Below, piece after piece: positions 24,962 to 57,761 of a stretch of DNA of 64,000 nt. The translations under genes and the position numbers were made by a program. Position 1 is the first letter of the stretch. Each line of letters starts with the position of its first letter. The stretch comes from Ceratodon purpureus (Eukaryota; Streptophyta; Bryopsida; Pseudoditrichales; Ditrichaceae). The notes under the pieces were generated by a model. That model saw only the letters and a list, made by a program, of their open reading frames with translations. It made no database searches and was not told the DNA's origin. Location of the stretch: contig CM026421.1 in the NCBI GenBank assembly GCA_014871385.1, positions 26,654,752-26,718,751 of the forward strand, in the 5' to 3' direction.

Positions 24962-25414
24962 TTAACCCCTAAAGGACAATGTGGCAAAATGGGGCTATTT
25001 TGGAGTTTGGGCATGTACCTGCGGATGCAATTTGAATTCAAATTTTATGAAATTTTTAATGAAAGTAGGCCTTGGTGAGAGCTTCGTGTCGGTATTTTTA
25101 ATTCTCAATTCCGATGTTGGAGTGAAAAGTTATTCACCTCTGAACCGCAGAAGCTACTCCCAGGGCAGGCTTGCAAAAAATGTTGTCCAATGAGAATGAG
25201 TTTGGGGAATTGACTTTTGGGGTGGGCAGCTGAATTTGTTTAAGGGGATAGAGGGGGGGCAGATTTTGAGAGGATGGAGGTGCAGGGGGCTGGAAGAAGA
25301 TCCCAGGACACGGTCGCCGAGGGGGGCCCGCGCCAATAAATGCCCAAAAAAAACCCTGTCACAGTCAGGCTGTGCGGGGCATCCAATGCCACAGCGGTGG
25401 ATGGCTGCATGGGG

Positions 25415-25525
25415 CGGGGCAGAGACATGGGCATGGGGGGGCTATGGGCATGGGGGGATTATGGGCATGGGGGAACAAGAGAACGGGGTGGGGAACAAGA
25501 GAACATGGGGTTTTGGTGAACATGG
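25415..25525 (+). repeat. G-rich minisatellite in the piggyBac leader (copy 1)
   Basis: Units of the form CTATGGGCATGGGGG recur about three times, followed by two copies of GAACAAGAGAAC in a G-rich context. A related phrase (GACTATGGGCATG) reappears inside the transposase coding region, where it encodes GDYGHEGNG repeats. The same block lies at 30730-30840 in copy 2. Confidence 0.7.
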
Positions 25526-25581
25526 GGTATCAGCAGCCAGCAGGCTGAGCGCAGCCAGCAGGCTCGACTGTATCGACGTTG

Positions 25582-25620
25582 CAGCCTGTGACTCTCTCCA
25601 CCAAGAGAGTCTGCAGGCTG
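25582..25620 (+). repeat. Hairpin in the piggyBac leader (copy 1)
   Basis: The arms CAGCCTG/CAGGCTG and GACTCTCT/AGAGAGTC pair around the loop CCACCA, with a one-base mismatch zone between the two helices. It lies upstream of the proposed start codon. It may shape the leader RNA or bind transposase. The second copy is at 30897-30935. Confidence 0.65.
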
Positions 25621-26005
25621 TAGACATGTATTTTTTAAAAATTGTAATCCCTCTCCTCAACTCTCATGCTCCTGAACTTGGTACTGATTCTTTCACCTTT
25701 GTCAGAAATCTAAAAGTAAAAAGAGACAAAGCCTTGGACTTGTTCATGATCTATTATACCTCATGAAAAAATTCAAAATGCATCAAAGTCAATCTCCAAG
25801 TTTGTCATTCCACCAAGAAGACAAATTCAGATGCTACACAACAAGGCAAGAGACCTAAATTCAAACTTCACAACAAAACCCCCCCATGCCCAAGAGTTGA
25901 CAACTTCAAGACATCATGAACATATAATTTCAGCTCAAGCAAAGAGCAATACATCATTTTCATTTGTGCACATTGTCATAGTGTCTACTCTTTACTACTC
26001 CTAAG

Positions 26006-28994
26006 ATGCCAAGGAAGAGTGCAAGGTCATGGAGAGGGAAGGAGGTTAGAGACACTTACTTCATGTTGAATTTTCTTGTTTTGTGATCATAGTCAATTGC
26101 TCTAATTTGATGCCAAACTCACTCATGGATGTTGCTGAAATTTGCAGGAGAGCTTCTTGGAGGCTCCACGACGAAGTTCAAGGTTGCATGTGTTGCAATT
26201 GGGAAGTACTTCCAACCCTCCTCCTATTCCCTCATCTCCACCTCCACCTATACTTTCACTACCTCCTACACTTCCAACTCCTTCCTCACCACCTCCACCA
26301 CCTGTAGAATTGGAGGGAGACATTCACACATTGCTACAGGACATAATTGGAGATTATGATCCTGATTTCGATGATAGTCAAAAAATATGTGTCAATGAAG
26401 GAAGGGAAAGCTCCTGTGAAGAACTAAGTGAAGACAGCTTTGATGAGGGAGAGTTTGCAATTGCAGAAGATAGAACTCTTGAAGAGTTATGGTGGCCTGA
26501 AGAATTACAGTACACTGTACAACAATTTGATTCAAGATGGAAGCAAAGAAAACGAAAATTACGAAGAGATGTGCAGAGAGAAGAGCAAACACATGCAGGA
26601 GAGCTAGGTGAAGGAAGCGGGGCTGCGATACAGACATCGACGGGGAGCGTTTGGGGCGGGGAAGGGCGCCCAACGGCACTCTTGGCCACGGTAATGGGGG
26701 TCGAAGGTGAGTCTATCACCGGGGCTGCAGTGGCAGGCGCAGCCACTGTTCCTGATGGAGGCAACCAGTGGGGGACATGCCACCCTGGCGGGGGCAGGGT
26801 CGCCACTGTAGCTGCAGTTGCAGCTGTGGCCAGGGAGCATGCGTCGGAGGCATGGGGGGAAGACCATGATGGGGGCATGGAGATGGGGGTGGGCCAGGGG
26901 GACTATGGGCATGAGGGGAATGGGGGGGATGATGCTGCTGATGTGGACGACAGGGTTGGGGGCATGAATCATGGGGACTATGGGCACGGAGGGAATGGGG
27001 ACGACGGGTACAGGGGAGGGGAGAATGTAGAAGATGGCAACAGGTTGGGGGCGGAGGATGACACTGCAACAAGGGGTACTGAGGTTCAGGGGTGTAGGAA
27101 TAGGGGGGTTGAGGGGGAATTAGGGAATTTAGGTGGATTTGAGGAGGATATGAGGGAGTTTGTTGTGGAGGAGGGGGAGACTAATATTCGTCAGAGGCAA
27201 AGGCAACAGTTTAGAGAAAGGAACAATATATATGATGTGCCAACATTGGAGAGTGATAGTGATGGGTCCAACGAGGAGGATTTTTTGAGTGGCGAAGAAG
27301 ATGGGGATGGGGAATTTGAGGACCCTAATAGCATCAAATTTTTATACCGTGATGATACGTGGAAAAAAACCTATTTCAAGTATGACCCACCGCCTATGGA
27401 TTTTGTGGGTGTTTCAATGCCTAACTTATTTTGGAGGGCATTTCCGACAATGTTGCAATTGTTTGACATTTTTTGGACACATAATATTATCCGCGACATT
27501 GTAAGAGAGACCAATCGTTATGCCACGGCGGTAGATGACGAGGGGAAAACTATGGGAGGTGTGGATTGGAGAGAATTTACCTTTCTAGAGTTCAAGGCAT
27601 TTATGGCAATTTGGTTATATATGGGTATGAAACGTCAACCAAACATCAAATCCTATTGGCATAGGAAAGGATCCATTTTCCACTGTTCTATTATTTCAAG
27701 GATTATGACGCGTTCTAGATTCATGGAATTGACAAGATGTTTACACATAACTAATCACGCAAATTATGTTAGAGATAAAGATTTGCCGGGTTATGACAAA
27801 TTGGGACAAGTTCGATGGTTGATAGACATCATTAGAGAGAACTGTAAGAAGGCTTGGAATTTGGGGAAGTTTTGTACAGTGGACGAGATGATGATTAGGT
27901 ACAAAGGCTCATATTGCCCATTGCGTCAATATATGCCCCAGAAACCACAGAAATGGGGTATCAAGGTTTGGTGCTTGGCATGTTCTACCTCCAAATACGT
28001 TTGGAATTTCTCAATTTATTGTGGGAAAACACAAGTTGTAGAAGAGGGTCCTAGGAGAACTAGAGGAGAACCTAGATTGGCCCATAACGTGGTTTTGGAC
28101 TTGACGGGTGACATATGCGGGAAAGGACATGTGATTACTATGGACAATTTTTTCACAAGTGTAGGGCTTTTCAGGGATTTGTATTCGAGGTTGATTTATG
28201 CAACGGGGACCATGCGAGCAAATCGTGTAGGATTACCTAAAGTATTTAGAAATACTAAGACTTTCATGAGAGAGGAGCAGGGATGGATGGATTGGAGAAT
28301 GCATGTGTCGAGGACAATCTCTGCCGTGGTTTGGAAAGATAAAAAACCTGTTCTACTTTTGTCTACACATGCTCCACCAACTACTGCACCAGGGAACATC
28401 ATCGACACGGTACCACGTCGGAATGGAGCAGTGCGGGATGAGGTACCAACATCTCCTATGCATTTAGAGTATACGACGCACATGAGGGGGGTCGACGTTG
28501 CCGACCAACTACGGGCGTCGTATTGCACTCAAAACCGCTCGCATAAATGGTGGCATCGCATATTCTTTTTTCTCATTGACATGACGGTTGTAAACATGTT
28601 TTTGGTGTACGTGGACAAATGTAAGAAGAGTGTACCGGTTAGAAGACCTATGACACACTTGCAATTTCGGACGGAGTTATGTGAAGCTTTATTACGAAAT
28701 TGGGGCGGGAGGGATTATGAAGACATTGGTAGAACTCCACAAGATCGAGGTGTATGTTATCCGTCATATTCAAGGAAGAGGGGTTATTGTGTGGTTTGCA
28801 ACAAGACTAAAAGTAGACTTGGAAAAAGGCCTCATCACTATTGTTCTTCATGTGACAATAAGTATATGTGTATTCATGGCATTTCTTGCTTCCAAAAGTA
28901 TCATGAACGCCTCCGTCGCCAAAGCCTAGAGAATGTGAGTATCTCAAAAATACCTTCAATTTTTTTCCCATCTTTTTTTCCTTATGCTCTCTAA
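26006..28994 (+). CDS. piggyBac-family transposase, two exons, copy 1
   Basis: The 948-codon open stretch from 26148 has no ATG near its 5' end. A 13-codon first exon (26006-26044, MPRKSARSWRGKE) followed by a 103-nt intron (donor GTTAGA, acceptor TTTGCAG) joins it in phase 0, giving 961 residues. The N-terminal third is low-complexity: a proline run, acidic stretches and GDYGHGGNG repeats. The DDE core follows. Catalytic Asp residues are visible in CTVDEMMIRYKG (D592), VITMDNFFTS (D679) and HMRGVDVADQL (D796 and D799). The C-terminus has a Cys/His-rich finger (CVVCNK, HHYCSSCDNKYMC, CFQKYH). The family cuts and pastes at TTAA without a footprint. A strong donor (AAT/GTGAGT at 28935) suggests that the last 19 residues may be replaced by another exon. 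Confidence 0.9.
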
Positions 28995-29414
28995 TTCAAT
29001 TTTTTCCAACTTATCAATCATTTCTTGTTTTGTTATTCCCCTCTCTTGAATTGGTTGAAAAAATTCTTCACATTACTATTTAGAATGGGGAAAAAAAAAA
29101 AAAAAAAAACAAGAAAAGTTGCAAAAAAAAAATCTAGAATTATTAGTTTTCTAGTATATGAGAGGTAGATGTTATCCATGAGTGAGAGGGGAGAGAAAGG
29201 GAAGTTTTGAAGGAGCTCACAGTGAATTCCCAAATACAGAGACGCATTTAGGTGCCACATGCAATAAGGAGGTGGCAAGATTAGGGGAAGGCGGTGGCGG
29301 CTTTAGGTGAAGGAGGAGGAAGAAGGTGGGGCACTATTTCTAGATGAGGGAGGAGGAAGGCCATTGGAGAGGAAGGGTCAGGCGGGGATCAGTGGGTGCA
29401 GAGAAGGGAGGTGG

Positions 29415-29444
29415 GCATGCATGGCCATGGGGGGCCATGCATGC
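29415..29444. repeat. Perfect 12-bp palindromic arms in piggyBac 3' region (copy 1)
   Basis: GCATGCATGGCC and GGCCATGCATGC flank a 6-base centre. A related but imperfect palindrome follows about 75 bp later, each with a GTGATTTATT phrase downstream. The region 29280-29720 is unusually GC-rich for this window. It might hold transposase-binding or regulatory sites. The copy 2 equivalent is 34730-34759. Confidence 0.75.
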
Positions 29445-30276
29445 GAGGGGGGAAGGGTGATTTATTGACAGCAAGGCAGGTTTACATGGTGAGCATGGCA
29501 TGGCCATGCGGGGCCATGCATGCGGGGAGGGTGGGGTGATTTATTCTCTGCCAGCAGAGCAAAGGGTCAAGGGGCTTGGAGGCCCTGTCAGGGGAGCCCC
29601 GGCCCTTGGCAGGGATTTGGTGCCGGGGAGGAAGGGGCGGGGACCAGTGGGGTTGGGTACATACACCCACCCCTGCCCTCTACTCTCTGGGCCGGGCAGC
29701 TAGGGGGTCTAAATCTCTGTATTTACCCCCTAGTTTGTTGTGTAATGATTCTTTTATTATTTTTTATTTTTTATATTTAGTATTACCTACTTACTCATGT
29801 TATCACCGTTTGGATTTTGAATTTTTCAAGATCCGTATTTACTACAAATGTTTTACCTAGAACTGTATTTGTGCAGAACTTTCACATGTGTTCCATTGCA
29901 TGATTTTTTGCAATATGTTCTACGTATCCAATACATATGAGTTTTGGTACACATGTTCCTAAGAATGTGTACTATGAAAATATCAAAAACCTCCAACTTC
30001 AACAGTGTAATAATTTTATCATACAAGCGGTCAAACTATTGTAACCTTCATGGGCAGTACAAAAAAAAATTTAGAAACAAACATCGAATGCTATAATTTC
30101 AAAATCTGCGCGCTCAATAATTCCAAAAAAATTACACCAAGTTCTCATAGACACATCCTTCAAGATCTAACGGTTGAAGGTCAAAAACACACCTTTCCAA
30201 AATTTAAATAACCTCTACATAGAAAATCGCAGATTTTGTCACTATAAACCCTGAAATTGTCAAAGAACTTTAGGGG

Positions 30277-30280
30277 TTAA
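30277..30280. other. Single TTAA shared by two piggyBac copies
   Basis: The right end of copy 1 (CTTTAGGGG) and the left end of copy 2 (CCCCTAAAG) abut this one TTAA. The junction is therefore exactly what a TTAA-targeted insertion next to an existing copy would leave. Confidence 0.95.
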
Positions 30281-33200
30281 CCCCTAAAGGACAATGTGGC
30301 AAAATGGGGCTATTTTGGAGTTTGGGCATGTACCTGCGGATGCAATTTGAATTCAAATTTTATGAAATTTTTAATGAAAGTAGGCCTTGGTGAGAGCTTC
30401 GTGTCGGTATTTTTAATTCTCAATTCCGATGTTGGAGTGAAAAGTTATTCACCTCTGAACCGCAGAAGCTACTCCCAGGGCAGGCTTGCAAAAAATGTTG
30501 TCCAATGAGAATGAGTTTGGGGAATTGACTTTTGGGGTGGGCAGCTGAATTTGTTTAAGGGGATAGAGGGGGGGCAGATTTTGAGAGGATGGAGGTGCAG
30601 GGGGCTGGAAGAAGATCCCAGGACACGGTCGCCGAGGGGGGCCCGCGCCAATAAATGCCCAAAAAAAACCCTGTCACAGTCAGGCTGTGCGGGGCATCCA
30701 ATGCCACAGCGGTGGATGGCTGCATGGGGCGGGGCAGAGACATGGGCATGGGGGGGCTATGGGCATGGGGGGATTATGGGCATGGGGGAACAAGAGAACG
30801 GGGTGGGGAACAAGAGAACATGGGGTTTTGGTGAACATGGGGTATCAGCAGCCAGCAGGCTGAGCGCAGCCAGCAGGCTCGACTGTATCGACGTTGCAGC
30901 CTGTGACTCTCTCCACCAAGAGAGTCTGCAGGCTGTAGACATGTATTTTTTAAAAATTGTAATCCCTCTCCTCAACTCTCATGCTCCTGAACTTGGTACT
31001 GATTCTTTCACCTTTGTCAGAAATCTAAAAGTAAAAAGAGACAAAGCCTTGGACTTGTTCATGATCTATTATACCTCATGAAAAAATTCAAAATGCATCA
31101 AAGTCAATCTCCAAGTTTGTCATTCCACCAAGAAGACAAATTCAGATGCTACACAACAAGGCAAGAGACCTAAATTCAAACTTCACAACAAAACCCCCCC
31201 ATGCCCAAGAGTTGACAACTTCAAGACATCATGAACATATAATTTCAGCTCAAGCAAAGAGCAATACATCATTTTCATTTGTGCACATTGTCATAGTGTC
31301 TACTCTTTACTACTCCTAAGATGCCAAGGAAGAGTGCAAGGTCATGGAGAGGGAAGGAGGTTAGAGACACTTACTTCATGTTGAATTTTCTTGTTTTGTG
31401 ATCATAGTCAATTGCTCTAATTTGATGCCAAACTCACTCATGGATGTTGCTGAAATTTGCAGGAGAGCTTCTTGGAGGCTCCACGACGAAGTTCAAGGTT
31501 GCATGTGTTGCAATTGGGAAGTACTTCCAACCCTCCTCCTATTCCCTCATCTCCACCTCCACCTATACTTTCACTACCTCCTACACTTCCAACTCCTTCC
31601 TCACCACCTCCACCACCTGTAGAATTGGAGGGAGACATTCACACATTGCTACAGGACATAATTGGAGATTATGATCCTGATTTCGATGATAGTCAAAAAA
31701 TATGTGTCAATGAAGGAAGGGAAAGCTCCTGTGAAGAACTAAGTGAAGACAGCTTTGATGAGGGAGAGTTTGCAATTGCAGAAGATAGAACTCTTGAAGA
31801 GTTATGGTGGCCTGAAGAATTACAGTACACTGTACAACAATTTGATTCAAGATGGAAGCAAAGAAAACGAAAATTACGAAGAGATGTGCAGAGAGAAGAG
31901 CAAACACATGCAGGAGAGCTAGGTGAAGGAAGCGGGGCTGCGATACAGACATCGACGGGGAGCGTTTGGGGCGGGGAAGGGCGCCCAACGGCACTCTTGG
32001 CCACGGTAATGGGGGTCGAAGGTGAGTCTATCACCGGGGCTGCAGTGGCAGGCGCAGCCACTGTTCCTGATGGAGGCAACCAGTGGGGGACATGCCACCC
32101 TGGCGGGGGCAGGGTCGCCACTGTAGCTGCAGTTGCAGCTGTGGCCAGGGAGCATGCGTCGGAGGCATGGGGGGAAGACCATGATGGGGGCATGGAGATG
32201 GGGGTGGGCCAGGGGGACTATGGGCATGAGGGGAATGGGGGGGATGATGCTGCTGATGTGGACGACAGGGTTGGGGGCATGAATCATGGGGACTATGGGC
32301 ACGGAGGGAATGGGGACGACGGGTACAGGGGAGGGGAGAATGTAGAAGATGGCAACAGGTTGGGGGCGGAGGATGACACTGCAACAAGGGGTACTGAGGT
32401 TCAGGGGTGTAGGAATAGGGGGGTTGAGGGGGAATTAGGGAATTTAGGTGGATTTGAGGAGGATATGAGGGAGTTTGTTGTGGAGGAGGGGGAGACTAAT
32501 ATTCGTCAGAGGCAAAGGCAACAGTTTAGAGAAAGGAACAATATATATGATGTGCCAACATTGGAGAGTGATAGTGATGGGTCCAACGAGGAGGATTTTT
32601 TGAGTGGCGAAGAAGATGGGGATGGGGAATTTGAGGACCCTAATAGCATCAAATTTTTATACCGTGATGATACGTGGAAAAAAACCTATTTCAAGTATGA
32701 CCCACCGCCTATGGATTTTGTGGGTGTTTCAATGCCTAACTTATTTTGGAGGGCATTTCCGACAATGTTGCAATTGTTTGACATTTTTTGGACACATAAT
32801 ATTATCCGCGACATTGTAAGAGAGACCAATCGTTATGCCACGGCGGTAGATGACGAGGGGAAAACTATGGGAGGTGTGGATTGGAGAGAATTTACCTTTC
32901 TAGAGTTCAAGGCATTTATGGCAATTTGGTTATATATGGGTATGAAACGTCAACCAAACATCAAATCCTATTGGCATAGGAAAGGATCCATTTTCCACTG
33001 TTCTATTATTTCAAGGATTATGACGCGTTCTAGATTCATGGAATTGACAAGATGTTTACACATAACTAATCACGCAAATTATGTTAGAGATAAAGATTTG
33101 CCGGGTTATGACAAATTGGGACAAGTTCGATGGTTGATAGACATCATTAGAGAGAACTGTAAGAAGGCTTGGAATTTGGGGAAGTTTTGTACAGTGGACG

Positions 33201-35591
33201 AGATGATGATTAGGTACAAAGGCTCATATTGCCCATTGCGTCAATATATGCCCCAGAAACCACAGAAATGGGGTATCAAGGTTTGGTGCTTGGCATGTTC
33301 TACCTCCAAATACGTTTGGAATTTCTCAATTTATTGTGGGAAAACACAAGTTGTAGAAGAGGGTCCTAGGAGAACTAGAGGAGAACCTAGATTGGCCCAT
33401 AACGTGGTTTTGGACTTGACGGGTGACATATGCGGGAAAGGACATGTGATTACTATGGACAATTTTTTCACAAGTGTAGGGCTTTTCAGGGATTTGTATT
33501 CGAGGTTGATTTATGCAACGGGGACCATGCGAGCAAATCGTGTAGGATTACCTAAAGTATTTAGAAATACTAAGACTTTCATGAGAGAGGAGCAGGGATG
33601 GATGGATTGGAGAATGCATGTGTCGAGGACAATCTCTGCCGTGGTTTGGAAAGATAAAAAACCTGTTCTACTTTTGTCTACACATGCTCCACCAACTACT
33701 GCACCAGGGAACATCATCGACACGGTACCACGTCGGAATGGAGCAGTGCGGGATGAGGTACCAACATCTCCTATGCATTTAGAGTATACGACGCACATGA
33801 GGGGGGTCGACGTTGCCGACCAACTACGGGCGTCGTATTGCACTCAAAACCGCTCGCATAAATGGTGGCATCGCATATTCTTTTTTCTCATTGACATGAC
33901 GGTTGTAAACATGTTTTTGGTGTACGTGGACAAATGTAAGAAGAGTGTACCGGTTAGAAGACCTATGACACACTTGCAATTTCGGACGGAGTTATGTGAA
34001 GCTTTATTACGAAATTGGGGCGGGAGGGATTATGAAGACATTGGTAGAACTCCACAAGATCGAGGTGTATGTTATCCGTCATATTCAAGGAAGAGGGGTT
34101 ATTGTGTGGTTTGCAACAAGACTAAAAGTAGACTTGGAAAAAGGCCTCATCACTATTGTTCTTCATGTGACAATAAGTATATGTGTATTCATGGCATTTC
34201 TTGCTTCCAAAAGTATCATGAACGCCTCCGTCGCCAAAGCCTAGAGAATGTGAGTATCTCAAAAATACCTTCAATTTTTTTCCCATCTTTTTTTCCTTAT
34301 GCTCTCTAATTCAATTTTTTCCAACTTATCAATCATTTCTTGTTTTGTTATTCCCCTCTCTTGAATTGGTTGAAAAAATTCTTCACATTACTATTTAGAA
34401 TGGGGAAAAAAAAAAAAAAAAAAACAAGAAAAGTTGCAAAAAAAAAATCTAGAATTATTAGTTTTCTAGTATATGAGAGGTAGATGTTATCCATGAGTGA
34501 GAGGGGAGAGAAAGGGAAGTTTTGAAGGAGCTCACAGTGAATTCCCAAATACAGAGACGCATTTAGGTGCCACATGCAATAAGGAGGTGGCAAGATTAGG
34601 GGAAGGCGGTGGCGGCTTTAGGTGAAGGAGGAGGAAGAAGGTGGGGCACTATTTCTAGATGAGGGAGGAGGAAGGCCATTGGAGAGGAAGGGTCAGGCGG
34701 GGATCAGTGGGTGCAGAGAAGGGAGGTGGGCATGCATGGCCATGGGGGGCCATGCATGCGAGGGGGGAAGGGTGATTTATTGACAGCAAGGCAGGTTTAC
34801 ATGGTGAGCATGGCATGGCCATGCGGGGCCATGCATGCGGGGAGGGTGGGGTGATTTATTCTCTGCCAGCAGAGCAAAGGGTCAAGGGGCTTGGAGGCCC
34901 TGTCAGGGGAGCCCCGGCCCTTGGCAGGGATTTGGTGCCGGGGAGGAAGGGGCGGGGACCAGTGGGGTTGGGTACATACACCCACCCCTGCCCTCTACTC
35001 TCTGGGCCGGGCAGCTAGGGGGTCTAAATCTCTGTATTTACCCCCTAGTTTGTTGTGTAATGATTCTTTTATTATTTTTTATTTTTTATATTTAGTATTA
35101 CCTACTTACTCATGTTATCACCGTTTGGATTTTGAATTTTTCAAGATCCGTATTTACTACAAATGTTTTACCTAGAACTGTATTTGTGCAGAACTTTCAC
35201 ATGTGTTCCATTGCATGATTTTTTGCAATATGTTCTACGTATCCAATACATATGAGTTTTGGTACACATGTTCCTAAGAATGTGTACTATGAAAATATCA
35301 AAAACCTCCAACTTCAACAGTGTAATAATTTTATCATACAAGCGGTCAAACTATTGTAACCTTCATGGGCAGTACAAAAAAAAATTTAGAAACAAACATC
35401 GAATGCTATAATTTCAAAATCTGCGCGCTCAATAATTCCAAAAAAATTACACCAAGTTCTCATAGACACATCCTTCAAGATCTAACGGTTGAAGGTCAAA
35501 AACACACCTTTCCAAAATTTAAATAACCTCTACATAGAAAATCGCAGATTTTGTCACTATAAACCCTGAAATTGTCAAAGAACTTTAGGGG
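30281..35591 (+). mobile_element. Full-length piggyBac transposon, copy 2
   Basis: It is the same 5311-bp element in the same orientation, offset by 5315 bases from copy 1 and followed by TTAA at 35592-35595. I found no base difference from copy 1 in the stretches compared, and all translated frames agree. Its leader minisatellite (30730-30840), leader hairpin (30897-30935) and 3' palindrome (34730-34759) correspond to those described for copy 1. A retroelement lies 32 bp beyond its right TTAA. Confidence 0.95.
31321..34309 (+). CDS. piggyBac-family transposase, two exons, copy 2
   Basis: Proposed exons are 31321-31359 and 31463-34309, encoding the same 961 residues as copy 1. The Asp residues of the catalytic core lie in the codons at 33197, 33458, 33809 and 33818, and the C-terminal Cys/His finger is complete. 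The two genes are transcribed in the same direction, so read-through from copy 1 into copy 2 is possible. Functional redundancy and lack of decay imply a very recent duplication or, less excitingly, an assembly duplication. Confidence 0.9.
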
Positions 35592-35627
35592 TTAATATGA
35601 TAATTAGCATAAAATTGTCATACTATG

Positions 35628-37016
35628 AAAAATCTCATTTCGGTACACCTCATTTCTGAGCATATTCCCTTTCCTTTCAAACTTATTTCAATCCACTCAT
35701 AATCCCTTCATATTCTCTGTAATGGATTCACAAGATCCATTGCATTGCATCTAAAGTTCAAACCTGTAACCAATCGGTTATTTTCAGGTTATAATTTGTA
35801 TGACTTTTCATAACTTAGCTACCACATTGCCTGGGCCTGTGTTTACAAGATGCCTCATGTCATAATAGTACCCATGCATCGCTTCTCCTTTCTGTATCTC
35901 AAGGGTAGCAACAGCCTAAATCAAATTCAGCTTTCTGTTCTCTCCCTACGGAGCTACTATCTGTGACCACGATCATTCCTCCATGTGCTTCGACTGCATA
36001 ATCTAGACTCAGCTTAACTTTGTCTAGAACCGAACTATTACACCATTCACCATACACCAAGCGTAATAAACCAATTTAAACACAAGTTCAGAGAATTTCG
36101 GTGGACAGTTGGGGTCGTGCTCCAGAATTTATAACGGCACTGCCTCTCACCTGTGCCCGTGAACATCCAACATCAGAGAGGTCAGATATTCGTACACAAG
36201 GTGTCGACAAGACAGTGCAGCTTGCTATCGCTAACATCATAAAATCAAAAGCAACGAATCCCAACAATATATCAGGCAAACCATTATGCTGAGTGAAACC
36301 GCAATATTCATGTGAACCTGCTGGCTCGACGACGGTTGAGTGCATGCCATGGTTCTACAGTGCTCAAGCTCACGTCCCCTCGCAGTGAACCTCAACGAAG
36401 TATGTATTTGGCTGCGGAGTATACTGCACTAGGTGATGCATCTGGGATTGGTGAAAACAACCCTTTGCCTTGGTAGCTGGTGCATATATGTTCGTTTCCA
36501 GCCTCTAATTGGGCTCGAACGTGCTTACACTTTTGCAATCTCATGAGCTGATTTTTCTCGATCCTAAATGTTGAATCAGTACTAGATGATCCCAGTGGAT
36601 ATCATTTTGTAAATTATTTGCTCATCCCTGTACAGCTCAGAATCTGTGTCACCGATTTGGTGATCACCATCCCTACTACCTTTATGTTATATACAACTTA
36701 ATGTATCTAGCTGCTGGGATATGCCACTTGATATCAATGTATCGTGGGTGTCATATTCGTGTAATCTCATTATGCGTTAAGCCACCTCAGCTCCTGGCTC
36801 AGAAAGGGTGGGCGGGTGGGTTTAATTAACAATTTTTATCATTGTCGACCCCCTGTCATAGACTGTACTGGTGTCTAATGTGCTTATGCAACCATTGATC
36901 CAACCATGCACTTTTATCCTCGTTTTGAGAACTTAATTGCCTCTGCGAGACCAGTTCCAAATCTCTCGCAATATTAAAGCGAAATTTTGAAAAAAAGAAA
37001 AAAGAAAAAAGAAAAC
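35628..37016 (-). repeat. Terminal direct repeat, 3' end of the retroelement
   Basis: It is identical, as far as I compared, to 41282-42671 apart from the length of A runs at the edges (5 versus 7 A at one end, 6 versus 7 A within the GAAAAAAG tract at the other). No large frame is present. As the 3' copy it should supply the transcript end. The constant offset shows no internal indel, so the two copies are very young relative to each other. Confidence 0.9.
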
Positions 37017-37043
37017 ACCCGCCACCACCCCTGGTGCGGATAT

Positions 37044-37093
37044 CCTCAGTAAGAGAGTACCTGGTGTACTCCCCTACTGAGGAGTACACCAGG
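37044..37093 (-). repeat. Overlapping inverted repeats between RT stop and 3' repeat
   Basis: Arms at 37060-37072 and 37081-37093 are 13-bp perfect complements with an 8-base loop. A second pair, CCTCAGTA at 37044-37051 and TACTGAGG at 37075-37082, uses bases of the first loop and arm, so the two folds compete. The element lies in the roughly 97-bp 3' untranslated spacer of the retroelement. It could act in template recognition, termination or RNA processing. No ribozyme core was confirmed. Confidence 0.7.
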
Positions 37094-37113
37094 CTCTTTA
37101 CTTGTTCATTGCA

Positions 37114-40100
37114 TTATTCGCAATGAAATTTCCTTTTTCTTGTTATTACCTTATGTATCAGTGTAATGTTCAGGTTTCGAATGCTGTGAAGTAACATTCG
37201 TACCTTTACGATTAGTTCCTGGAGATCAAATTTCAGGCCTGGGAAAGGGCTATCCATGAGGAACGCTGAAATCAATCGTCTAAGTCGAAGTGGTTTGAAA
37301 CCATTCTTTACCATGGTCGAAATTAATATCTCGAGCTCTTGAGCTGCTGCTTCAATAGTGCTCGACAAATACAGTATCGGCACTGTTTGGGAGACGGCAA
37401 TGTTATATGATTGCTTGATGGGCCTGTTGGAAGCAAACATGATATATTGCGTGTAATCAAAAGGTTGATTACGTCGCTTGTCGTATTTGCATGTTTGGTA
37501 CTGTCCCGGAACTAAGTCCGAGATGGTCACATCTAGGTTCATGAAATGGGCTTGTATGCCCCTTGTAGGATCTTGTGGGTCATAACGTGACGTTTCACAT
37601 TTGATTTCGAGAACATTCAATGGGTATACCCAAAATGGGTTATCCGCGACTCGGGGCTGCTCAGGTGATAGGAAACGCATGGGGTCCGGTGTATTGATCC
37701 AGCAGAGGTCATCAATGTACCTATATGCGTAGGCAAACTGCCTCATGAGATCAGCCCGTCCAAGCTTAGCTAATCGTTGCATAAAGGAAACCTCGTAATG
37801 GAGGAGGTACATATTGCACCACAAGGGGGAACATGAAAACCCCATAGGGATTCCAAGCTGTTGCCGCCACACTCTGTCACCCAATCCAACGTAACAGTGG
37901 GTAATTAACCATCTGTGCAAGGATATGAGTCTCTGCTCTGAGATACTAAACCAATCACCATACGTGGGTTTGGAACTACTCCATTTTGTGCTAGCTGCTT
38001 TTCCTTCCTGATCAACTCTCACCCATATGCTTGGGTTAGAGCGAGGGTGATCTTTCCGTGCCTGTCTAAAACCGATTCGTATGATATGAGATATGGCGTC
38101 GATAAGGTTGTCTTCCCCTTCTAATGGGATGGACTCATAGCATCTGGTAATGTCCGCAACGAATATGTTGTTGACTTTCTCAGGCATATTCAGGGCCATT
38201 TCGATGGCTGAATTCACTATCCAAAAGGTAGAAGTGTTGCATTTCATGAAGCTTGCATACCCAGTCTGGGTGTCGTTGGCCCATTCCTTGACCTGATCTA
38301 AAATGATCATCGTAGTAATAGTCAATAAGTGGCCAATATTAGAGTAAATCGTTTGGAACGCATTGGTGATCCATCGATATGTGTTCTTATGTTGTTTGTA
38401 CGTAGACATAAGGTATGGTAGTGCCTCATAGGTCACACGCATTTCAGGTAATATCTGTGAAATTTCAGCTGAGTTTTGATATGCTACTGAAGCTGGTAGT
38501 AGCCATATCTTGTCTTCACGACAAGGGTGGAAATCAGCACCCATTAATCTTTCATAGGCTAGCAACCTTATGTGTTTTGCACACATAAAGCACGGATTAT
38601 TTCCGGCTTTGTCCAACCCAGCACAATATAAGTGTTCCGTCAAAAATGCCACTTCATTTTTGACTGGTTGCATCTCAAGCAGATTCTTACCGGAAACTTT
38701 GAACCCGAATTTGTTCGTTTTGTATGCCTGTTTTAATCTGTCCAAACATGTGGCTCGCAGCCATTCCTTAGCCTGTACCATTGGAAAATTCATCGCTTCA
38801 AGATCCAGAATTGACGCACATTGCTCAAAGGCATCCAAAATTGTGGCCACACAGATTCCTAATGAAGTTTCCCGAAGTGGAATGTGATTAAGTCCTTTGG
38901 ATATCGCATGTCTGAGTCCATGGTGTTGAACCACTGCTGTGTCCATTGTACGCACATGAATCTCTGCTGGTGCATAAATGCCACCTTCGGCAATAGTTGT
39001 AGAGTCCAGGAATGCTCGAAATCGAGAGATTTTCCCACAGACACAGTGGTCATTAGGGTCCAGCAAATGCATGAAGCTAAACGTCTTAAACACCACAGAG
39101 GGTTTGTAAAAGACTGTAGATAACGGTGCATGATATTGCCATGCAATCATGATATCTGATACCATTGGCACCATGTACTCAAAGTTGTATAGATGCAATA
39201 CTTCTGCAAGTATATTCCGCAAATGTATCCATTCCATTGCCCTATTAGGGTATTTTAATACTATATACCCTATTGCTTTCCTTTTACTGCCTCTAATCAA
39301 CACTGTTCGCCCTAGCACATCTTGGCCTAAGCTACGAGTTGCTTCTGAAACAAGACATACAAAATTTCACAGGGATATTAGTATCACTACATCTCGTCCT
39401 CAAAACTAAACATACGTCCCTTAGGAACTGTAGGCGGGATCTCTGTTATGGTGGCTCGTGCTACAGCATTGCTGCTCACGGTGTTGGTATTAGCACCAAA
39501 CATGCCCATAATTGTTCTCTGGCCGGGCATTGGCAAGGCAGTGGCATTAAGCTCAGGCCTCATCTGCGTGGCTACTGGTGACGCCAAGTTAGCCGCATGC
39601 AGATTCTGCTGGTGGTATCCGGGTGCAGCATAGTTGCCCTGCTGGTTACGAGAACCAGTCCCGCCACTGTTGAAACCACCATAATTGCCGTGGAAATTTC
39701 CAGGATTTCCCCCAGTATGCCTATGGTATGCCTGGCCGGAGTTGTTCCAACCGCCACTGTTCGCGTTCCTCGCATTATTGCGGTAGTTACCGCGTCCGCG
39801 ACCCCTTCCTCTGCTGTTGCGAAAACCACCACCACCTTCCTTGGCTGGTCCTGCATTCATGTTGAACTTCTGGCGTTTCCCAGCTGGTGCCTCTGTAGGC
39901 GTCAGCGGATTTTTCAACGAGAACTCAAGCGGTAGGAGAAGCCTCTCGACCTTGATCAATCCTGCGTGCTCAGGTATGTTGGGAAAAAGGCGTGCGTTGA
40001 TATCAGCTGTAAGCTTGATCGCTCCATCCACAAGCCAACCACGACTATGCATAAAAAAGATGTGGCATTTGGTGGCCAAGCGTCCAGCACCTGCCAGCCA

Positions 40101-41267
40101 TATCAGAAATGCCCCAAACTTGGAAATCAACGAAGGATAAGTGTTGTCCGGAAAGAAGCGTTCCAGGTGATTCACGATGAACCATACCGCGTGGTCAAAC
40201 CAAATAATGGCTCCACTACACCCCGAAACTGCCATTTTGTGACAAACACAGCGTAGGTACGGTCTGGCACAGTTCCATAACTCGTTCGGAAACTTCCACG
40301 TGCGTTCTAGCGGGCTGAGGTCCTGCTTGATGTGTACACGTACGGAAGGTGTCGGACATTTGGTATACTCGTAAGATGACAACGGAAATGCTGATGGCAT
40401 GGTGTATGCACTTGCGATGAAGTGTGTGTTGCTTTTAGCATTTTCCGCACATAAGTCCATTTCTACTGAGGTCAGGCCAGCCCAGATTCTCCACATATGA
40501 AATGGGATCGGTGCCAATAGATTAATGTTACCATTGGTCCATACACGATGGTTGATTCCCGGTAACATGTCCTCAACTGCGCGCGCAGGCGTCAGTGGTA
40601 TGGCTAGCTTTTTGCCGGTGGCAATATTAGCTGCGCTGTCAATCGCTACTTGAGAGAGACTGATATTCTCCTGTAAATCCTCAAGTGCAGCCTTATGTGC
40701 CTCAGACACCTTTAAATTTTTAAGAAACGGATGGTTCAACGTAGTATCGTCCTTAGTTTCTGTTGGAGGCTGGTTCTGTTCTGTTACGTCATGAAACTCA
40801 GAGTTGGCAGCTCTTAAGGCCGCTTCAACTAGTGGAGTGTGCACTTCGGCCCATTCGAAATCCTCGTTATCCTTATGCACCATCATTCGTAAGCATCCCT
40901 TGAGTTCTTTCAATCGTTCCAGCGCCTTAGGGGCGTCGATATTTGCGAATTCAAAGATACGAGTCCATTGTCCGAGGTCCAATGTAATCAGCAAGAGAGG
41001 TTCACCGTCATCAGTCGGTGTGGCTGTCGCCTGTGCTGCGAGATCCGACGCTTGTATGTACGCGTGAATCTCCGACGGTTGAATTGCCGACAGTGTTGCT
41101 TGGACAGCTGGGATCGGTACTGGCAGCGGGTCGTTATAACCCATGGCGACTAGGTCAGGATGCCATACAGCAATCCTCTGTCGTGCCGCCTGCCATGTAG
41201 TAGATAGAGAGTTAGATATCGCAATTTGAAAGAAATATAAAATATGACGAAGGTTCACCACCTTCAT
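37114..41267 (-). CDS. Gag-like/RG-rich ORF1 fused by splicing to a Penelope/TERT-branch reverse transcriptase
   Basis: Proposed CDS: complement of 37114-39344 joined to 39416-41267, 1360 residues. The ORF1 part (617 residues) is of unknown fold, with a basic KRQK motif and an RG/GN-rich tract at about 477-545, typical of RNA binding. Unspliced, it would add nine codons and stop at 39387. The RT part has no ATG and is closed upstream by TGA. In it I see CVCG and HVRTMD (about 719-752), LDKAGNN (862), VADITRCYESIP with motif A Asp1015, QQLGIPMGFSCSP (G1115-G1119), YRYIDD with the catalytic pair D1162/D1163, and YDKR (1238-1241). All three catalytic Asp residues are present. GIPMG...SP and YDKR also occur in a widespread animal RT family related to Penelope elements, from memory. 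No endonuclease follows. The ORF1 ATG lies 15 bp inside the 5' repeat edge. Confidence 0.75.
39345..39415 (-). other. 71-nt spliceosomal intron joining ORF1 to RT
   Basis: On the minus strand the interval starts GTATGTTTAG, contains GATACTAATATCC (a TACTAAT branch-like site about 30 nt from the 3' end) and ends CTTGTTTCAG. It contains the ORF1 stop codon and the TGA that closes the RT frame. Removing it leaves GGAC joined to AAGCA, which makes a Gln codon and continues the RT frame with no shift. Retention would give a 626-residue ORF1 protein alone, so splicing could set the ORF1:RT ratio. Confidence 0.75.
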
Positions 41268-41281
41268 GCGGATAGATTGAA

Positions 41282-42671
41282 AAAAATCTCATTTCGGTAC
41301 ACCTCATTTCTGAGCATATTCCCTTTCCTTTCAAACTTATTTCAATCCACTCATAATCCCTTCATATTCTCTGTAATGGATTCACAAGATCCATTGCATT
41401 GCATCTAAAGTTCAAACCTGTAACCAATCGGTTATTTTCAGGTTATAATTTGTATGACTTTTCATAACTTAGCTACCACATTGCCTGGGCCTGTGTTTAC
41501 AAGATGCCTCATGTCATAATAGTACCCATGCATCGCTTCTCCTTTCTGTATCTCAAGGGTAGCAACAGCCTAAATCAAATTCAGCTTTCTGTTCTCTCCC
41601 TACGGAGCTACTATCTGTGACCACGATCATTCCTCCATGTGCTTCGACTGCATAATCTAGACTCAGCTTAACTTTGTCTAGAACCGAACTATTACACCAT
41701 TCACCATACACCAAGCGTAATAAACCAATTTAAACACAAGTTCAGAGAATTTCGGTGGACAGTTGGGGTCGTGCTCCAGAATTTATAACGGCACTGCCTC
41801 TCACCTGTGCCCGTGAACATCCAACATCAGAGAGGTCAGATATTCGTACACAAGGTGTCGACAAGACAGTGCAGCTTGCTATCGCTAACATCATAAAATC
41901 AAAAGCAACGAATCCCAACAATATATCAGGCAAACCATTATGCTGAGTGAAACCGCAATATTCATGTGAACCTGCTGGCTCGACGACGGTTGAGTGCATG
42001 CCATGGTTCTACAGTGCTCAAGCTCACGTCCCCTCGCAGTGAACCTCAACGAAGTATGTATTTGGCTGCGGAGTATACTGCACTAGGTGATGCATCTGGG
42101 ATTGGTGAAAACAACCCTTTGCCTTGGTAGCTGGTGCATATATGTTCGTTTCCAGCCTCTAATTGGGCTCGAACGTGCTTACACTTTTGCAATCTCATGA
42201 GCTGATTTTTCTCGATCCTAAATGTTGAATCAGTACTAGATGATCCCAGTGGATATCATTTTGTAAATTATTTGCTCATCCCTGTACAGCTCAGAATCTG
42301 TGTCACCGATTTGGTGATCACCATCCCTACTACCTTTATGTTATATACAACTTAATGTATCTAGCTGCTGGGATATGCCACTTGATATCAATGTATCGTG
42401 GGTGTCATATTCGTGTAATCTCATTATGCGTTAAGCCACCTCAGCTCCTGGCTCAGAAAGGGTGGGCGGGTGGGTTTAATTAACAATTTTTATCATTGTC
42501 GACCCCCTGTCATAGACTGTACTGGTGTCTAATGTGCTTATGCAACCATTGATCCAACCATGCACTTTTATCCTCGTTTTGAGAACTTAATTGCCTCTGC
42601 GAGACCAGTTCCAAATCTCTCGCAATATTAAAGCGAAATTTTGAAAAAAAGAAAAAAGAAAAAAAGAAAAC
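41282..42671 (-). repeat. Terminal direct repeat, 5' end of the retroelement
   Basis: This is the upstream copy of the 1.39-kb repeat. It should contain the promoter and most of the 5' leader, since the ORF1 start codon is only 15 bp past its inner edge. Its outer edge is a GAAAAAAG-type purine tract on the plus strand, next to AACAAAACAAAAC. Confidence 0.9.
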
Positions 42672-43713
42672 AAACAAAACAAAACATAAGTTACATGAGT
42701 TTTAAAATATACACAAAGAATTTAAGCAATATAGATGTTATAAAACAATACTTTATAACTCCATACAAAGAAACATATTCTCATGGACTCTTGAAATAAG
42801 AGTCCAAACATTTTTCATGTTGCCGACTTAAGGTAGCATTTGTCATCTTATCTAAATTTCCTACTACTTTCTTAATTTGATAATTTTATGAACAATAAAA
42901 TATGAGGATTTTTTTTATAAGAAACTAGACAACAATGAGTATTTCCCTTCTACATTTGTACCTAAACCCTAATTTTCATTAGTTTCCAATGATAAGTGGC
43001 TTTTCTAAGTAGTTTCCAAGTAAAAATGGGTTAATTTTAGACAAACATAACATAGATATAAGAATTTCAACCTTGATTGCCTATCTAATATGACAAAACA
43101 AAGATATTAAATGTTGCATCTCAAGTGTTGTAGTCCAATAAAAGAGGGAATTGTAATTTAAAAAAATTGATTGCGGAAATATGCGTTGTAATATCAAGGA
43201 TGTTGTATAAACAAGTGTCAAACTAATGTTGTTAAAATCTATTAGTTAAATGGCAAAATTGGTAGGAAAGAAAAACAAAAAGACTTGGCAATTTTAAGAA
43301 ATATAGACAAAAAAGTTCAAGTTCTTTGGAATCGTATTGAATTTTCTATGAAATTTGAAAGGTTTAAGATTATAATTCCAAAAACCAATAGCAAGTGGTT
43401 TTGATAATCAAAAGTAAAAGGCTACTAAAAAAAATATTATAGAATCAGTAAATGGACCAATGACACAACAGCTGACATGTGAGGAAAATAATGTCTTCTA
43501 TGATAAATTGTATACCTTTAAAATAAGGCAATTACTAGTGATAATATCTCATACCAAAGTTTGGAACTAGTGTGTATTAATAATTGATCAACTATGAAAA
43601 TCAAGTTGGATTTGAGCATCTTTGTGGTGAAGAATAAGCTGAATTTTTGGAAAGTAGAATGTTTTGTCAACCAAAGTAAACACATTCCATAAAATTTTCT
43701 TAGATAAAATGTT
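42672..43713. other. AT-rich intergenic DNA
   Basis: No gene is supported. The stretch begins with an AAC/AAAAC-rich tract right at the retroelement border and ends at a TTAA. Confidence 0.5.
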
Positions 43714-50960: not shown

Positions 50961-52073
50961 GGAGGATCCTATGGCTCAGCCCAGCCTTAATTTTGAGGGG
51001 CTAATCCTTTACAAAATTACCATATACAAAATAAATAATTTTGAGAAGAGTTTCGAGGGGGTCCTTGTGGGCAGGTTCTTGAGTAAAGGAATCCTTTGGG
51101 TATTACGTGCTGTGAGCCCTTACCTTTACATGTTAGAAGGCCTAACCCTTACATGCTCACATGCTGAATCGCTGATGGGGCGAAATTTGATATCATACCT
51201 AGTATGATACCGACACCCGTATCAGAGTTACATGTGATAACAAGAAAGCAACTTAGACCTCCCTGGTGTCTTAACAATCCCTCTTTTGTCAAACATATTT
51301 GGTCATGCACCATGGTTGTTGGATTTGGTCAAATATATTTTCCATGCATCATGGCTGTTGGTGGTAAAGTTCATGAACTTTCTCGTCCAGGTTTCCTCGG
51401 TTCGGATGGGAATTGAGCATGGGAACCATCCCCCATTCTATATGAAATCAAACTAAGTTTGATATGTTAACCATTTTTTGTACGGCAATATCAGTGTTTA
51501 AAACATCCTAACTTCTTTCCCTGTACTTACGTGTCAAACTTATCAAGGAATGAAATAACAACTTTCTATTTTACAGGTTGATACATGTGTCGGATTGACT
51601 ACGCATTACTGGTGAATCATTTGGTAGAGGTGATGCTATTGCCCATTTATTCAAGTTGGACGAGCCGGGGGCTTACTCTTTCAGAAGCTTTTAGTATTCC
51701 TATGCATGCCCCAGACTCACTGAAAACCAATGCTGCTAAAAACCCCTTCCGCCGACACATAGAGGTTTCCTTTAGAATTGACATAGTTTCAAACCATTAC
51801 CACTACTTAAACTCTTCTAAGAACTTCGTAAGAATATGGACTCAATGGGTCGGTTCAGCACACCCATACTGGCCCATGTCTTGTCTATGGATCAATAATA
51901 ATTGTAATAAAATCACAAGTAGTGACAGAAAATCTTAATGTGACGAAGCTACAAGGTTAAAAGCTACAGAAGCTCAACCTTGGAAGGTAGAGGACCTCTG
52001 CCGTTAGATTCTGGGTTTGATACCTTGAAGAAAGTTTACACAAAATAATATTATATTCAAGTCTCGGAGGGAC

Positions 52074-55000
52074 ATGGCCTGGGCGAAGCCCTCCAAGGTC
52101 GCTGCAGGTAGCATCGCCTTCATGGTATGGTGGATATTGTCCGTCTTCCCGGCTTTGCCTCTGCTTCCGATCGGCAGGACTGCAGGTTCACTGTTGGGTG
52201 GCACTCTCATGGTTGTTTTCGGAGTACTTTCACCCGACCAGGCATTCGCTGCAGTGGACCTGCCCATCCTTGGTCTTCTCTTCGGGACCATGGTTGTAAG
52301 TGTCATGCTTCAGCAGGCTGGTCTCTTCTTGTATCTGGGACGGATGCTTTCATGGAAAACGCGGGGCGGAATCGACCTTATGTGCAGGCTGAGTCTTCTG
52401 TCAGCTCTGTCAAGTGCATTGTTCACGAACGACACAACCTGCGTGTTTTTGACTGGCTTCGTGCTGAAGCTTTGTAAGGAGAAGAAGCTCCACCCGAAGC
52501 CATTCCTGCTTGCGCTTGCTTGTAGCGCCAACATCGGCTCTTCTGCCACGCCCATTGGAAATCCTCAGAACCTCGTCATTGCCGTGGGGAGTGGCATCGG
52601 TTTTGGTAAATTTTTGGCGGGTGTTTTCCCTGCGATGGCGGTAGGGTTGGTGGTGAATACTCTTTTGTTGGTGGTGGTTTATGGGCGTCGTCTCTCTTTG
52701 GACCCCTCGAGGGCCGCAGAGACTGTAACCAGGAGCCGAGAGGATGGTGAAGATGTTCATGGCATTGCTCCTGACATGACTGATCATCGTGGATGGGGCC
52801 AAATGTCCCGAGCTGATTTAAGCGGTCCGCGCGTATCAGTCAATGAGTCCCACCAGATTGAGCAGAGAAGGGAGGGCAATGGCGAAATTATGGATGAGAG
52901 CTCGGAACGGGATGTTGGAGGACGACTTGATCATGACAACGGTGTCAATAGGTCTGTCCCTGAACGGGATGTGGAAGAACGACTTGATTGTGAGAATGGT
53001 GTCAATAGGTCTGTCCCTGAACGGGATGTGGAAGAACGACTTGATTGTGAGAATGGTGTCAATAGGTCTGTCCCTGAACGGGATGTCGAAGGACAACTTC
53101 ATCAGCATGAAACTGTGAAGCCGGATGGTCCGCCACGGAGATCCTTCAGGACAGCCTCTTATAGTGCTTCCGGCGTGTTACCATTCCGGGATCCATCGAC
53201 ATTGAGGAACTCTTTGAGATTGAGGAACTCTTACAAGGAAAAAATGAGGAAGTCTTGGATGAAGCACAAGGAAAAACTCTGGAAAATTAGCGTTTACCTT
53301 GTGACGCTTGGGATGCTGGCTGCTCTTTTAGCGGGATTGAGTCTTCCATGGACTGCAATAACAGCTGCCGTGGCAATGTTGATACTAAACTTCTCAGATG
53401 CGGGGCCGAGTCTTGACAAGGTTTTTGCCTCTTCACATATCCTCGAAAATTGGAATGGACTGAAACCTTCTCTCCTTCTGTGCATTTCTGTCGAATGTCA
53501 TCAAGAGGCGATGTATTCGGTAGCAGGTCGGGTTGGGGGTACTGGACGTAACCAAAGAAAACAACCAGATGGGCTACTTGGAATTGCCTGTTTGTCTTCG
53601 GAACTTGAAAGTTCGGGTCGAGAACCTCGGTTAGGGTTTGAGCTCTGCGAAAATCTTGTTGTGCGTTTTGACACTCAACTCAAGACTTCATTTGCATCAC
53701 CTCGTCTTGCTGTTCACACTCCTCTGGCTCACTTGCTCGAGTTTAGCTTTTGTGGAAATTATTATTCGCTAATTTTGAGGTAGGAATGTGGGCTGGGTGA
53801 GTTCGTTTTGCGTTTAACGTGATGTGTGCGGGGATTTTGTCGTTGGTTCGCGTGACCTTCATGGTGTTGGACACAAATGCTGTGTTCATGACGTTGATTT
53901 TCAGGTATTTGGAGTTTTTTGCTCTGTGAGTTGAGAGATATTTCCTGGTCTGCGTAATTGATCACACATTGATGTGTTCAATTGCAGGATGTGTGCGTTG
54001 CTTAGTGCCTGCGCTCTTTAGGGATGAGATAGAACGGTTTCGGCTAATTCTGTTTTCAGGTTGTGGAATTGTGACGATCTATTTTAGCGGGTGTATTTTG
54101 AATCAGCCATTAGAGAGTCCACTAGGACTCATGCGAGAATTGTATAAAAGCTGGTGCTAGGTAGGGTCACTCTGAGTTCAGCAGTATGTTGCGTGTCGCA
54201 TTAATGGAGGTGGTCTCTGAAGCTGTCACACTCTACGCTTCTCGATACCTTTGGTTACTCGTCTAAATTGAAATGCCTGGGTTGTGCTTGGAACCTGAGA
54301 TGGTAAACCATTTTATGACAATTTTGTACACTGAACACCATTGTGAAATATTACGAAACGAATGCCCAAATTTCAAGCTACTCCTTAATTGGAGAATTTC
54401 TGGCAATCTCACATGCGAAGTAATGTTCGTGCAGGTTTCGTACAATTTGCTGGTGTTCTTCTCTGGTATGTTTATTGCAACATCTGGCTTCAACGCGACT
54501 GGTGCTCCTCAAGAATTTTGGTCAGCAGTGGAGCCACATTCTCGGATTGATACTGCTAGCGGAGTCAGCGTGCTGTCTCTGGTTGTTACCGTTCTCTCGA
54601 ATGTGGTATCGAATGTTCCGACAGGTACTGTATGTCTCTGTCTTTGATGTGTCTCTGACCTTTACATAGCATTTCTATGCTCTTTTGGTCTTTATAGTGG
54701 AACTGATAACCTTGTCGATCATTAGTGGGGTTCGAATGCCAATTTTTTCTTGCAAAATCATAATTAAATTCAGCTAGTTGTGTAACCTGACTTGTGTCCT
54801 CATGCATTTATCTGCAGTTATACTGCTAGGGGGAAAGGTTGCAGCATCAGCAGTCAGCTCTGGAGCGAGTTCTGATAAGGCATGGTTTATCCTAGCGTGG
54901 GTGAGCACAGTGGCTGGAAACTTGACATTGGTGGGGTCTGCAGCAAACATAATTGTTTGTGAAGAGGCGAGAGAAACACAGGCAGAGAAAAAGCTTCGTG

Positions 55001-57284: not shown

Positions 57285-57761
57285 ACACAGCCTGGCTGCT
57301 TGAGTTCCTAGTTCGGGACTTTGAGTTACTAGTGCGGCTGTCGTAGTTGTTGATTGGAGGACTTCTGACCGTTTTTTCATTGTAAACTGATTCTAAACAT
57401 CAAAGTGCTCATTCCTTTAATATTCAAATTGTTTCTCTCCTGCAGGTGCACATTTTTTGCATTGAAGGATCAGCATACTGTCGGAGAATTGAAATGCTTG
57501 GGTTGTAAAACAACTCTAGCAGAAGCCGGCCTTCGGAGAATCTTGGACTGCTGATTTGGTGCGGGTCGGTGGTTAGCCAATATTCAGTTCATGAAGGAAA
57601 GTTCCAAGTGGGTAGATTGCCTGCATACAACTTGTAAATTACCAGTGTGTTGAGGGTAGGCCAAGGTCAAACCCATTGTCAAGAGGAAAGGATTCTTGAT
57701 TCACCCCAATCCAAAATTTTAGGTTTAGTTCTTCTGATCAGTAACAGTATCTCCCATACAA

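Follow-up and report, generated by a model that had tools for sequence, protein, structure and literature searches.

We analyzed a window of 64,000 nucleotides from the moss Ceratodon purpureus (C1:26654752-26718751 of the assembly). It contains, on the minus strand, a retroelement that is real and was mobile in recent times. The element has two long open reading frames, ORF1 and ORF2, placed between two direct repeats. These repeats are pseudo-LTRs (LTR, long terminal repeat), and the features are collected in Table 1. The two repeats align over 1391 columns with 0 substitutions and one 1-nt indel in an A tract, and 1383 bp are letter-identical. A preliminary description of the locus had reported the 1.39-kb repeats, with an end coordinate that was 1 nt short. 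It had also reported the two minus-strand frames, which we confirm.

Table 1. Features of the moss element in the window.
Feature	Position	Strand	Remarks
Whole element: repeat, ORF1, ORF2, repeat	35628..42672	-	Borders recur at C68 and in the C1 trimer
5' direct repeat (pseudo-LTR)	41282..42672	-	Starts TGTTTTCTTTTTTTC, ends GAGATTTTT; diverged solo repeats have similar ends
T-rich tract opening the repeat	42643..42672	-	(CT)n at this place in other subfamilies
Stem-loop just beyond the repeat end, loop GGTGA	41247..41267	-	8 pairs, covariation over 7 subfamilies
ORF1, open frame	39387..41288	-	C-x-C...C...H cluster and RGG-rich tail; 633 codons between stops, with ATG 41144 as candidate start
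Proposed 1661-nt intron, G/GTGAAC ... TTTCAG	39345..41005	-	Removal would join early ORF1 to the reverse transcriptase
71-nt intron of the preliminary description, C/GTATGT ... TTTCAG	39345..39415	-	In phase here; donor not conserved
ORF2, open frame	37114..39366	-	Telomerase-like reverse transcriptase, preceded by ~75 conserved residues at the N-terminus and a CxC motif (108/110); 750 codons
Stretch of structured RNA that includes CCAGGGGTGG, ahead of the 3' repeat	37011..37116	-	Related motifs in other subfamilies
3' direct repeat (pseudo-LTR)	35628..37017	-	Aligned with the 5' repeat

The assembly searched is haploid, with 151 contigs and a total of 362,488,568 bases. The copy numbers given here are minimum values, and the search with ORF2 scored 60 of 101 candidates. 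It gave at least 67 matches. Five of them are about 100% identical and lie at three sites with shared borders: the window, a single element (C68:15842-22887) and a trimer with units of 5655 bp (C1:28679993-28698349). Diverged subfamilies show a similar organization. The copies at C7:14.35 Mb (X7a) and on C15 (X15) form dimers whose repeats measure 1659 and 2101 bp. The locus at C7:0.33 Mb (X7b) is composite, with one element at the junction between the internal part and the 3' repeat of another; the internal part of this other element is 65% identical. On C10, three ORF2 copies follow each other with a spacing of 8499 bp. Five near-identical and many diverged copies of ORF2, together with homologues of both frames, exceed what chance would give. 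The recent movement and the Penelope-like repeats proposed at first are supported, as are tandem arrays and a high copy number. Two other arrays, L054 (C4:5504001-5513000, period ~1.9 kb) and L055 (C2:490001-498500, ~3.6 kb), are open at the fetched edges. Their units carry the C-terminal part of ORF2 only and are satellite-like derivatives of the element family.

A search of the genome with the repeat only returned 26 rows, with eight near-identical copies at the same three sites, nine diverged places and one row of 30 nt. The nine diverged places are called solo repeats because none of them appears in the list of ORF2 matches. Both borders were read for seven of the nine. Six start with (TG)TTTTC or TTTC, as the element does, and the one at C6:49125877 opens with a T/A tract, unlike the other six. 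All seven finish with GATTTTT, followed by further T.

The product of ORF2 presents the motifs GIPMG and YIDD of a reverse transcriptase (RT), as first noticed. The catalytic Asp residues 405, 552 and 553 are retained jointly in 85 of the 87 family rows having letters at these positions. The Pfam family RVT_1 scores 22.4 bits against ORF2, under its cut-off of 29.6. The structure was also predicted. Telomerase (TERT) chains top both the Foldseek and the VIA lists for this predicted fold, and the telomerase-like part spans most of ORF2 (about residues 78-730). The VIA rows contain no RT of LTR elements, and that absence shows nothing. A short profile match to the host TERT has the motif Q..GI..G...SPL.C in common. 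The predicted fold and this match support the telomerase side of the Penelope/TERT branch that had been proposed for the RT. The host telomerase gene itself (C7:4422945-4423406) is an open frame of 579 codons with the single Telomerase_RBD match of the assembly. Before the RT, the two cysteines of the CxC motif are conserved (C108 in 79/81 and C110 in 78/81 family rows). Residues 8-79 are conserved too (R-A-x-E-W and others), and the VIA rows assign no fold there.

No Pfam match to RNase H, integrase, protease, GIY-YIG or tyrosine recombinase was found in 19 ORF2 and 25 ORF1 proteins. This agrees with the preliminary description, which had seen no protease, RNase H, integrase or GIY-YIG domain and had regarded an RNase H or integrase in other copies as evidence against its reading. 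PF12009 (Telomerase_RBD) has no match in the 19 ORF2-family proteins either. The pattern GIY...YIG was not found in either ORF of the window; a strongly diverged domain may have escaped these searches.

With ORF2 as a single sequence, the protein search gave 105 proteins, 101 of them at 40-62% identity and four from Chara braunii at 27-30%. The profile of 19 ORF2 proteins gave 113, including one further Chara protein. Both searches reached the own family and Chara and no known Penelope-like element (PLE), a silence that is weak evidence with a word-limited search tool. Sequence searches of the PDB gave chance matches only. There was no ORF2 match in phage records and no relative in viral contigs, and two RT motif patterns retrieved nothing. 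Weak rows from NCBIfam/PADLOC (group II, Drt2, CRISPR-RT) were set aside, as any RT might give them. For one protein (P0094), scanning it directly did not confirm the label PF26215.

The ORF1 product has 24 homologues, in which the C-x-C...C...H cluster is conserved. The added ORF1 of the preliminary description is thus supported as a conserved partner. Pfam gave no match for ORF1 of the window, and among the 25 ORF1 proteins no family matched more than one member. The predicted structure (mean predicted local distance difference test score, 66.5) is confident at about residues 37-168 and 260-460, and the RGG-rich tail is disordered. No structural neighbours of the predicted fold were found. 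Two pairs of ORF1 and ORF2 matches come from the same source and agree in the length of its longest contig (P0119/P0018 and P0123/P0023). They are suggestive of one contig each, so both frames seem to travel together beyond Ceratodon. Because of its composition, the ORF1 product likely binds RNA. That it forms a coat is a guess, and the label Gag-like is a tentative one, drawn from anatomy.

How the RT is expressed was also considered. The preliminary description placed an intron of 71 nt between the two frames. In the window, this GT-AG interval does link them in phase. However, its donor has no GT counterpart in several subfamilies (L006, L010, L013, L015, L016), and the C-terminus of ORF1, through its stop, is conserved in most homologues despite this variable donor. 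The conserved donor lies early in ORF1. All of the 10 loci that could be read there have GGT as its codon. Joined to a CAG just 5' of ORF2, it gives an in-frame, stop-free fusion in all ten, with introns of 1522-1661 nt. The survey pattern demanded Gly at the donor codon, and among the 186 Gly codons of six ORF1s, 34% are GGT. The ten loci include close relatives (L006/L007; L009/X7a/X15), which leaves ~7 lineages; L010 and L028, where early ORF1 is not readable, are outside them. At the donor codon, 21 of 25 ORF1 proteins have G, two have S, one has C and one has R, and NGT can encode each of these residues. The window and L017 have a second in-frame CAG.

One of the 113 ORF2 homologues, P0009, has an ORF1 N-terminus (...MAGEE) fused straight to ETVRLLIKDQLGRS of the RT. 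It is the product predicted from the removal of the ~1.6-kb intron. Judged from these sequences, a conserved intron of ~1.6 kb probably starts within ORF1 and serves the expression of the RT. We infer that the unspliced RNA would give ORF1 and the spliced RNA the RT with a short ORF1 leader. The idea that the element has its own intron is right in part, with its placement corrected. In PLEs, transposed copies can keep introns. To our knowledge, conserved splicing of the RT behind an ORF1-first RNA is not described for them. Our literature search, mostly at the level of search results, found no moss PLE with ORF1 or splicing. Several loci (X7a, X15, L009) also show CAG acceptors with pyrimidine tracts just 5' of ORF1, between the 5' repeat and ORF1. 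They hint at a second, 5' leader intron in several subfamilies.

Two RNA structures lie next to the repeats. The stem-loop beyond the repeat end has an invariant GGTGA loop. Over seven subfamilies, 91.1% of its cells are paired (29-57% in slid controls), and four of the eight pairs changed on both sides. The exact word GTGGTGA is present near ORF1 in two of seven loci and missing in L006, L007, L008, L010 and L028; the lineage of L008 carries GCGGTGA. The stretch before the 3' repeat folds at -56.7 kcal/mol, against -29.6 in shuffles (z -7.7). It contains a stem of CCTGGTGT and ACACCAGG, which has 81.5% of its cells paired over eight sequences (slid controls, 22-46%). The motif CCAGGGGTGG lies 5' of the repeat not only in the window but also in X7a, X15, N9 and the two units of X7b; C10 and N6 carry variants of it. 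A hammerhead ribozyme was not found with Rfam in 35400-42900, where a search with E values up to 10 listed just two rows, both due to chance.

The borders of the element differ among subfamilies. In the CT-type ones, the repeats open with (CT)n and close with CTCTCT. Their surroundings are similar: (CT)n is present on both flanks of N9 (C6:27.09 Mb), on the 3' flank of X7a and of N8 (C13:4.82 Mb; its 5' flank reads N), and on the 5' flank of X15 and X7b. Contig C15 stops 5 bases past the last repeat, and the outer border at C10 is merely CT-like. Altogether, (CT)n or a CT-rich flank is present on at least one side in five of the six CT-type insertions read. Starts are T-rich in the subgroup of the window, where runs of 5 to 16 T follow on the 3' side at 11 of 11 places. 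At N6 (C6:101.5 Mb, 62%), a T/C tract opens the element behind a T-rich flank, and the 3' border is not clear. Reading the borders across subgroups, the end tract and the surroundings match and shift together. Elsewhere in the window, over 56,955 bases, there is no (CT)5/(GA)5 tract (the script's figure of 57,055 includes 100 N). No word of 5 or more is common to the junctions of three of three recent insertions, the sites that the script covered, so a target-site duplication was not found there. Three findings go beyond the preliminary description: the solo repeats, the RNA structures and the location at simple repeats.

We consider it fairly probable that this is an autonomous, recently active retroelement of the Penelope class without a recognizable endonuclease, which works by the mechanism proposed here. 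The endonuclease-lacking PLE or sister lineage of the preliminary description gains from the side on which the RT falls, the arrays and the lack of a recognized endonuclease; its intron had to be moved. We infer splicing, priming by annealing, the bound RNA structure, the role of ORF1 and the opening of the target. The unspliced RNA would encode ORF1, whose product would bind RNA and might act as a coat. Once the ~1.6-kb intron, which covers most of ORF1, is removed, ~46 ORF1 residues would be fused to the RT. The RT may bind the element RNA at the stem-loop past the repeat end, at the structured stretch before the repeat start, or at both. A chromosomal 3' end of a simple repeat, (GA)n or, for the window subgroup, oligo(A), would anneal to the matching tract of (CU)n or U with which the repeat closes, and it would be extended from there into the element. 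Starts at successive junctions between repeat and internal part in array transcripts could yield solo repeats, single elements and head-to-tail arrays, with no need for strand transfer. The variable T runs would be slippage on the start tract. The element has the repeat end as its outer 3' border. In array RNA, the stem-loop comes directly after this end, and this fits a model of internal start of reverse transcription. The conserved N-terminal 75 residues of ORF2 may be the first candidate for opening the target.

Several observations weigh against this proposal. The counts of flanks, stems and borders are not fully uniform. The 5' flanks of the window subgroup are T-rich at some places only. 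The GGTGA stem-loop has an unremarkable energy in the window (z -0.15), and its +3 slide likewise has four pairs changed on both sides, with a covariation of 0.274 against 0.506. The covariation of the CCTGGTGT/ACACCAGG stem is weak (0.089, against 0.174 in the -3 slide, with equal both-side changes). The lack of GIY-YIG in the 19 ORF2 and 25 ORF1 proteins also speaks for a lineage outside the PLEs.

Such a lineage would be a sister group of PLEs and TERT that kept a telomerase-like RT, acquired ORF1 and the splice layout independently and uses a similar mechanism. Profile searches that reach Chara proteins and no known PLE point the same way, as do an ORF1 without known relatives beyond the family and the own splice layout. 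On the other hand, the word limit of the search tool makes the missing PLE matches weigh little, and the CxC motif is reminiscent of the PLEs Naiad and Chlamys. Tandem arrays and pseudo-LTRs are moreover hallmarks of PLEs (PMC11167929). We hold this origin to be unlikely. A wider claim is rather doubtful: an order-level lineage of its own, next to PLEs and telomerase, with two proteins and an RT made by splicing a short ORF1 leader to it. Here a short simple-repeat stretch of the element's RNA, by a stem-loop, would serve the telomerase-like RT as the template to which exposed microsatellite ends anneal, so that no endonuclease would be needed; the target would follow the stretch, and ORF1 may package the RNA.

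The other explanations change the way of insertion or the nature of the locus. An unrecognized nuclease, located in ORF1 or in the first, conserved 75 residues of ORF2, could favor simple repeats and let a nick prime the synthesis, with a minor part for annealing. The conservation of ORF2 residues 8-79 with no fold assigned, and the Cys/His cluster of ORF1, make this a serious possibility, though one we hold at less than even. No nuclease family and no GIY...YIG pattern was found in the ORFs, and annealing directly explains why tract and site co-vary between subgroups. That the element is a genuine LTR retrotransposon whose pol has diverged, with tRNA-primed LTRs and an integrase in trans, we regard as very improbable. 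Its repeats would have precise ends, opening with TG, and leave solo repeats, as seen here. But the predicted RT fold is nearest to telomerase, no family of RNase H, integrase or protease was found with Pfam, the three recent junctions have no common word of 5 or more, the 3' T runs vary, and borders are (CT)n. Finally, a telomerase-like fold and intact frames could come from a cellular gene or a domesticated RT. This is hardly credible, since the multiple matches, arrays, solo repeats and broken copies contradict it, and the only Telomerase_RBD match of the assembly lies elsewhere (C7:4422945).

Other features of the window lie outside the element. Two letter-identical copies of a piggyBac-like transposon (5319 bp each; DDE_Tnp_1_7, E 6.9e-78) occupy 24962-35595, head to tail with one common TTAA. 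Their right end is 32 bp from the 3' repeat of the element. Adjacent frames of CitMHS/ArsB-type transporters (52029-53783 and 57738-58922) have a DNA identity of 71% over 581 columns and are probably a tandem gene pair. At 13776-13841, TTTAGGGGCAAGTAG is repeated in tandem (4.4 copies) within a frame bearing SAM and fn3 domains.

What we describe is probably a variant of the PLE kind, whose rank would follow from the phylogeny of the RT. PLEs with an N-terminal endonuclease, Naiad and Chlamys, were reportedly described by Craig et al. in 2021. They have an N-terminal GIY-YIG domain, CxC before the RT, pseudo-LTRs, tandem insertions, a bias to microsatellites and no hammerhead. By this description, the moss element shares the pseudo-LTRs, the tandem copies, the microsatellite bias and the lack of a hammerhead, and its CxC motif may correspond to theirs. 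It differs in GIY-YIG, which was not found in it. The endonuclease-lacking PLEs, EN(-), Athena and Coprina are tied to chromosome ends. The moss element is like them in having no recognized endonuclease and a land-plant host. However, its loci are not confined to ends: 16 of 19 measured are more than 1 Mb from a contig end (the small-contig sites C15 and C68 were left out). A review of land plants lists EN(-) PLEs for Selaginella and conifers (PMC9033089), and the present family would add a moss to these hosts.

The PLE Poseidon of Anolis is close in mechanism to our proposal (PMC11167929). Its transcripts span tandem copies, the first 172 nt of the ORF are required, and reverse transcription starts internally; the published model places this start near a stem-loop at the junction of repeat and ORF. 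Both elements have tandem-derived pseudo-LTRs, an insertion at the junction between internal part and repeat, and borders that fit an internal start. The start tract matches the target in moss and not, according to that paper, in the Anolis element. Compared with Penelope and Poseidon, the moss element is also without a detected GIY-YIG or hammerhead, has the additional ORF1 and carries its RT behind conserved splice signals. Such conserved splicing of the RT, with ORF1 first on the RNA, would be similar to the way in which retroviruses express their genes.

The Chara braunii proteins CBR_g12620, g41701, g44593 and g40692 (and g40067) present the homologous N-terminal part and RT motifs at 27-31% identity, in fused or partial gene models. 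The comparison with telomerase concerns an old question, the relation of this enzyme to mobile elements, which the moss family could help to connect. TERT has the predicted fold (about 78-730) and the motif Q..GI..G...SPL.C in common with ORF2. Conversely, the moss element is multi-copy and mobile and has its own template RNA region, and the host TERT is a separate single match. Subgroups with T-rich and CT-rich ends, in like surroundings of one genome, offer a natural experiment on target choice led by RNA. With a telomerase-like RT, a repeat tract by a stem-loop and matching sites, the step between retroelement and telomerase becomes testable in vitro. As in the priming of telomerase, the start tract of the moss element matches its target.

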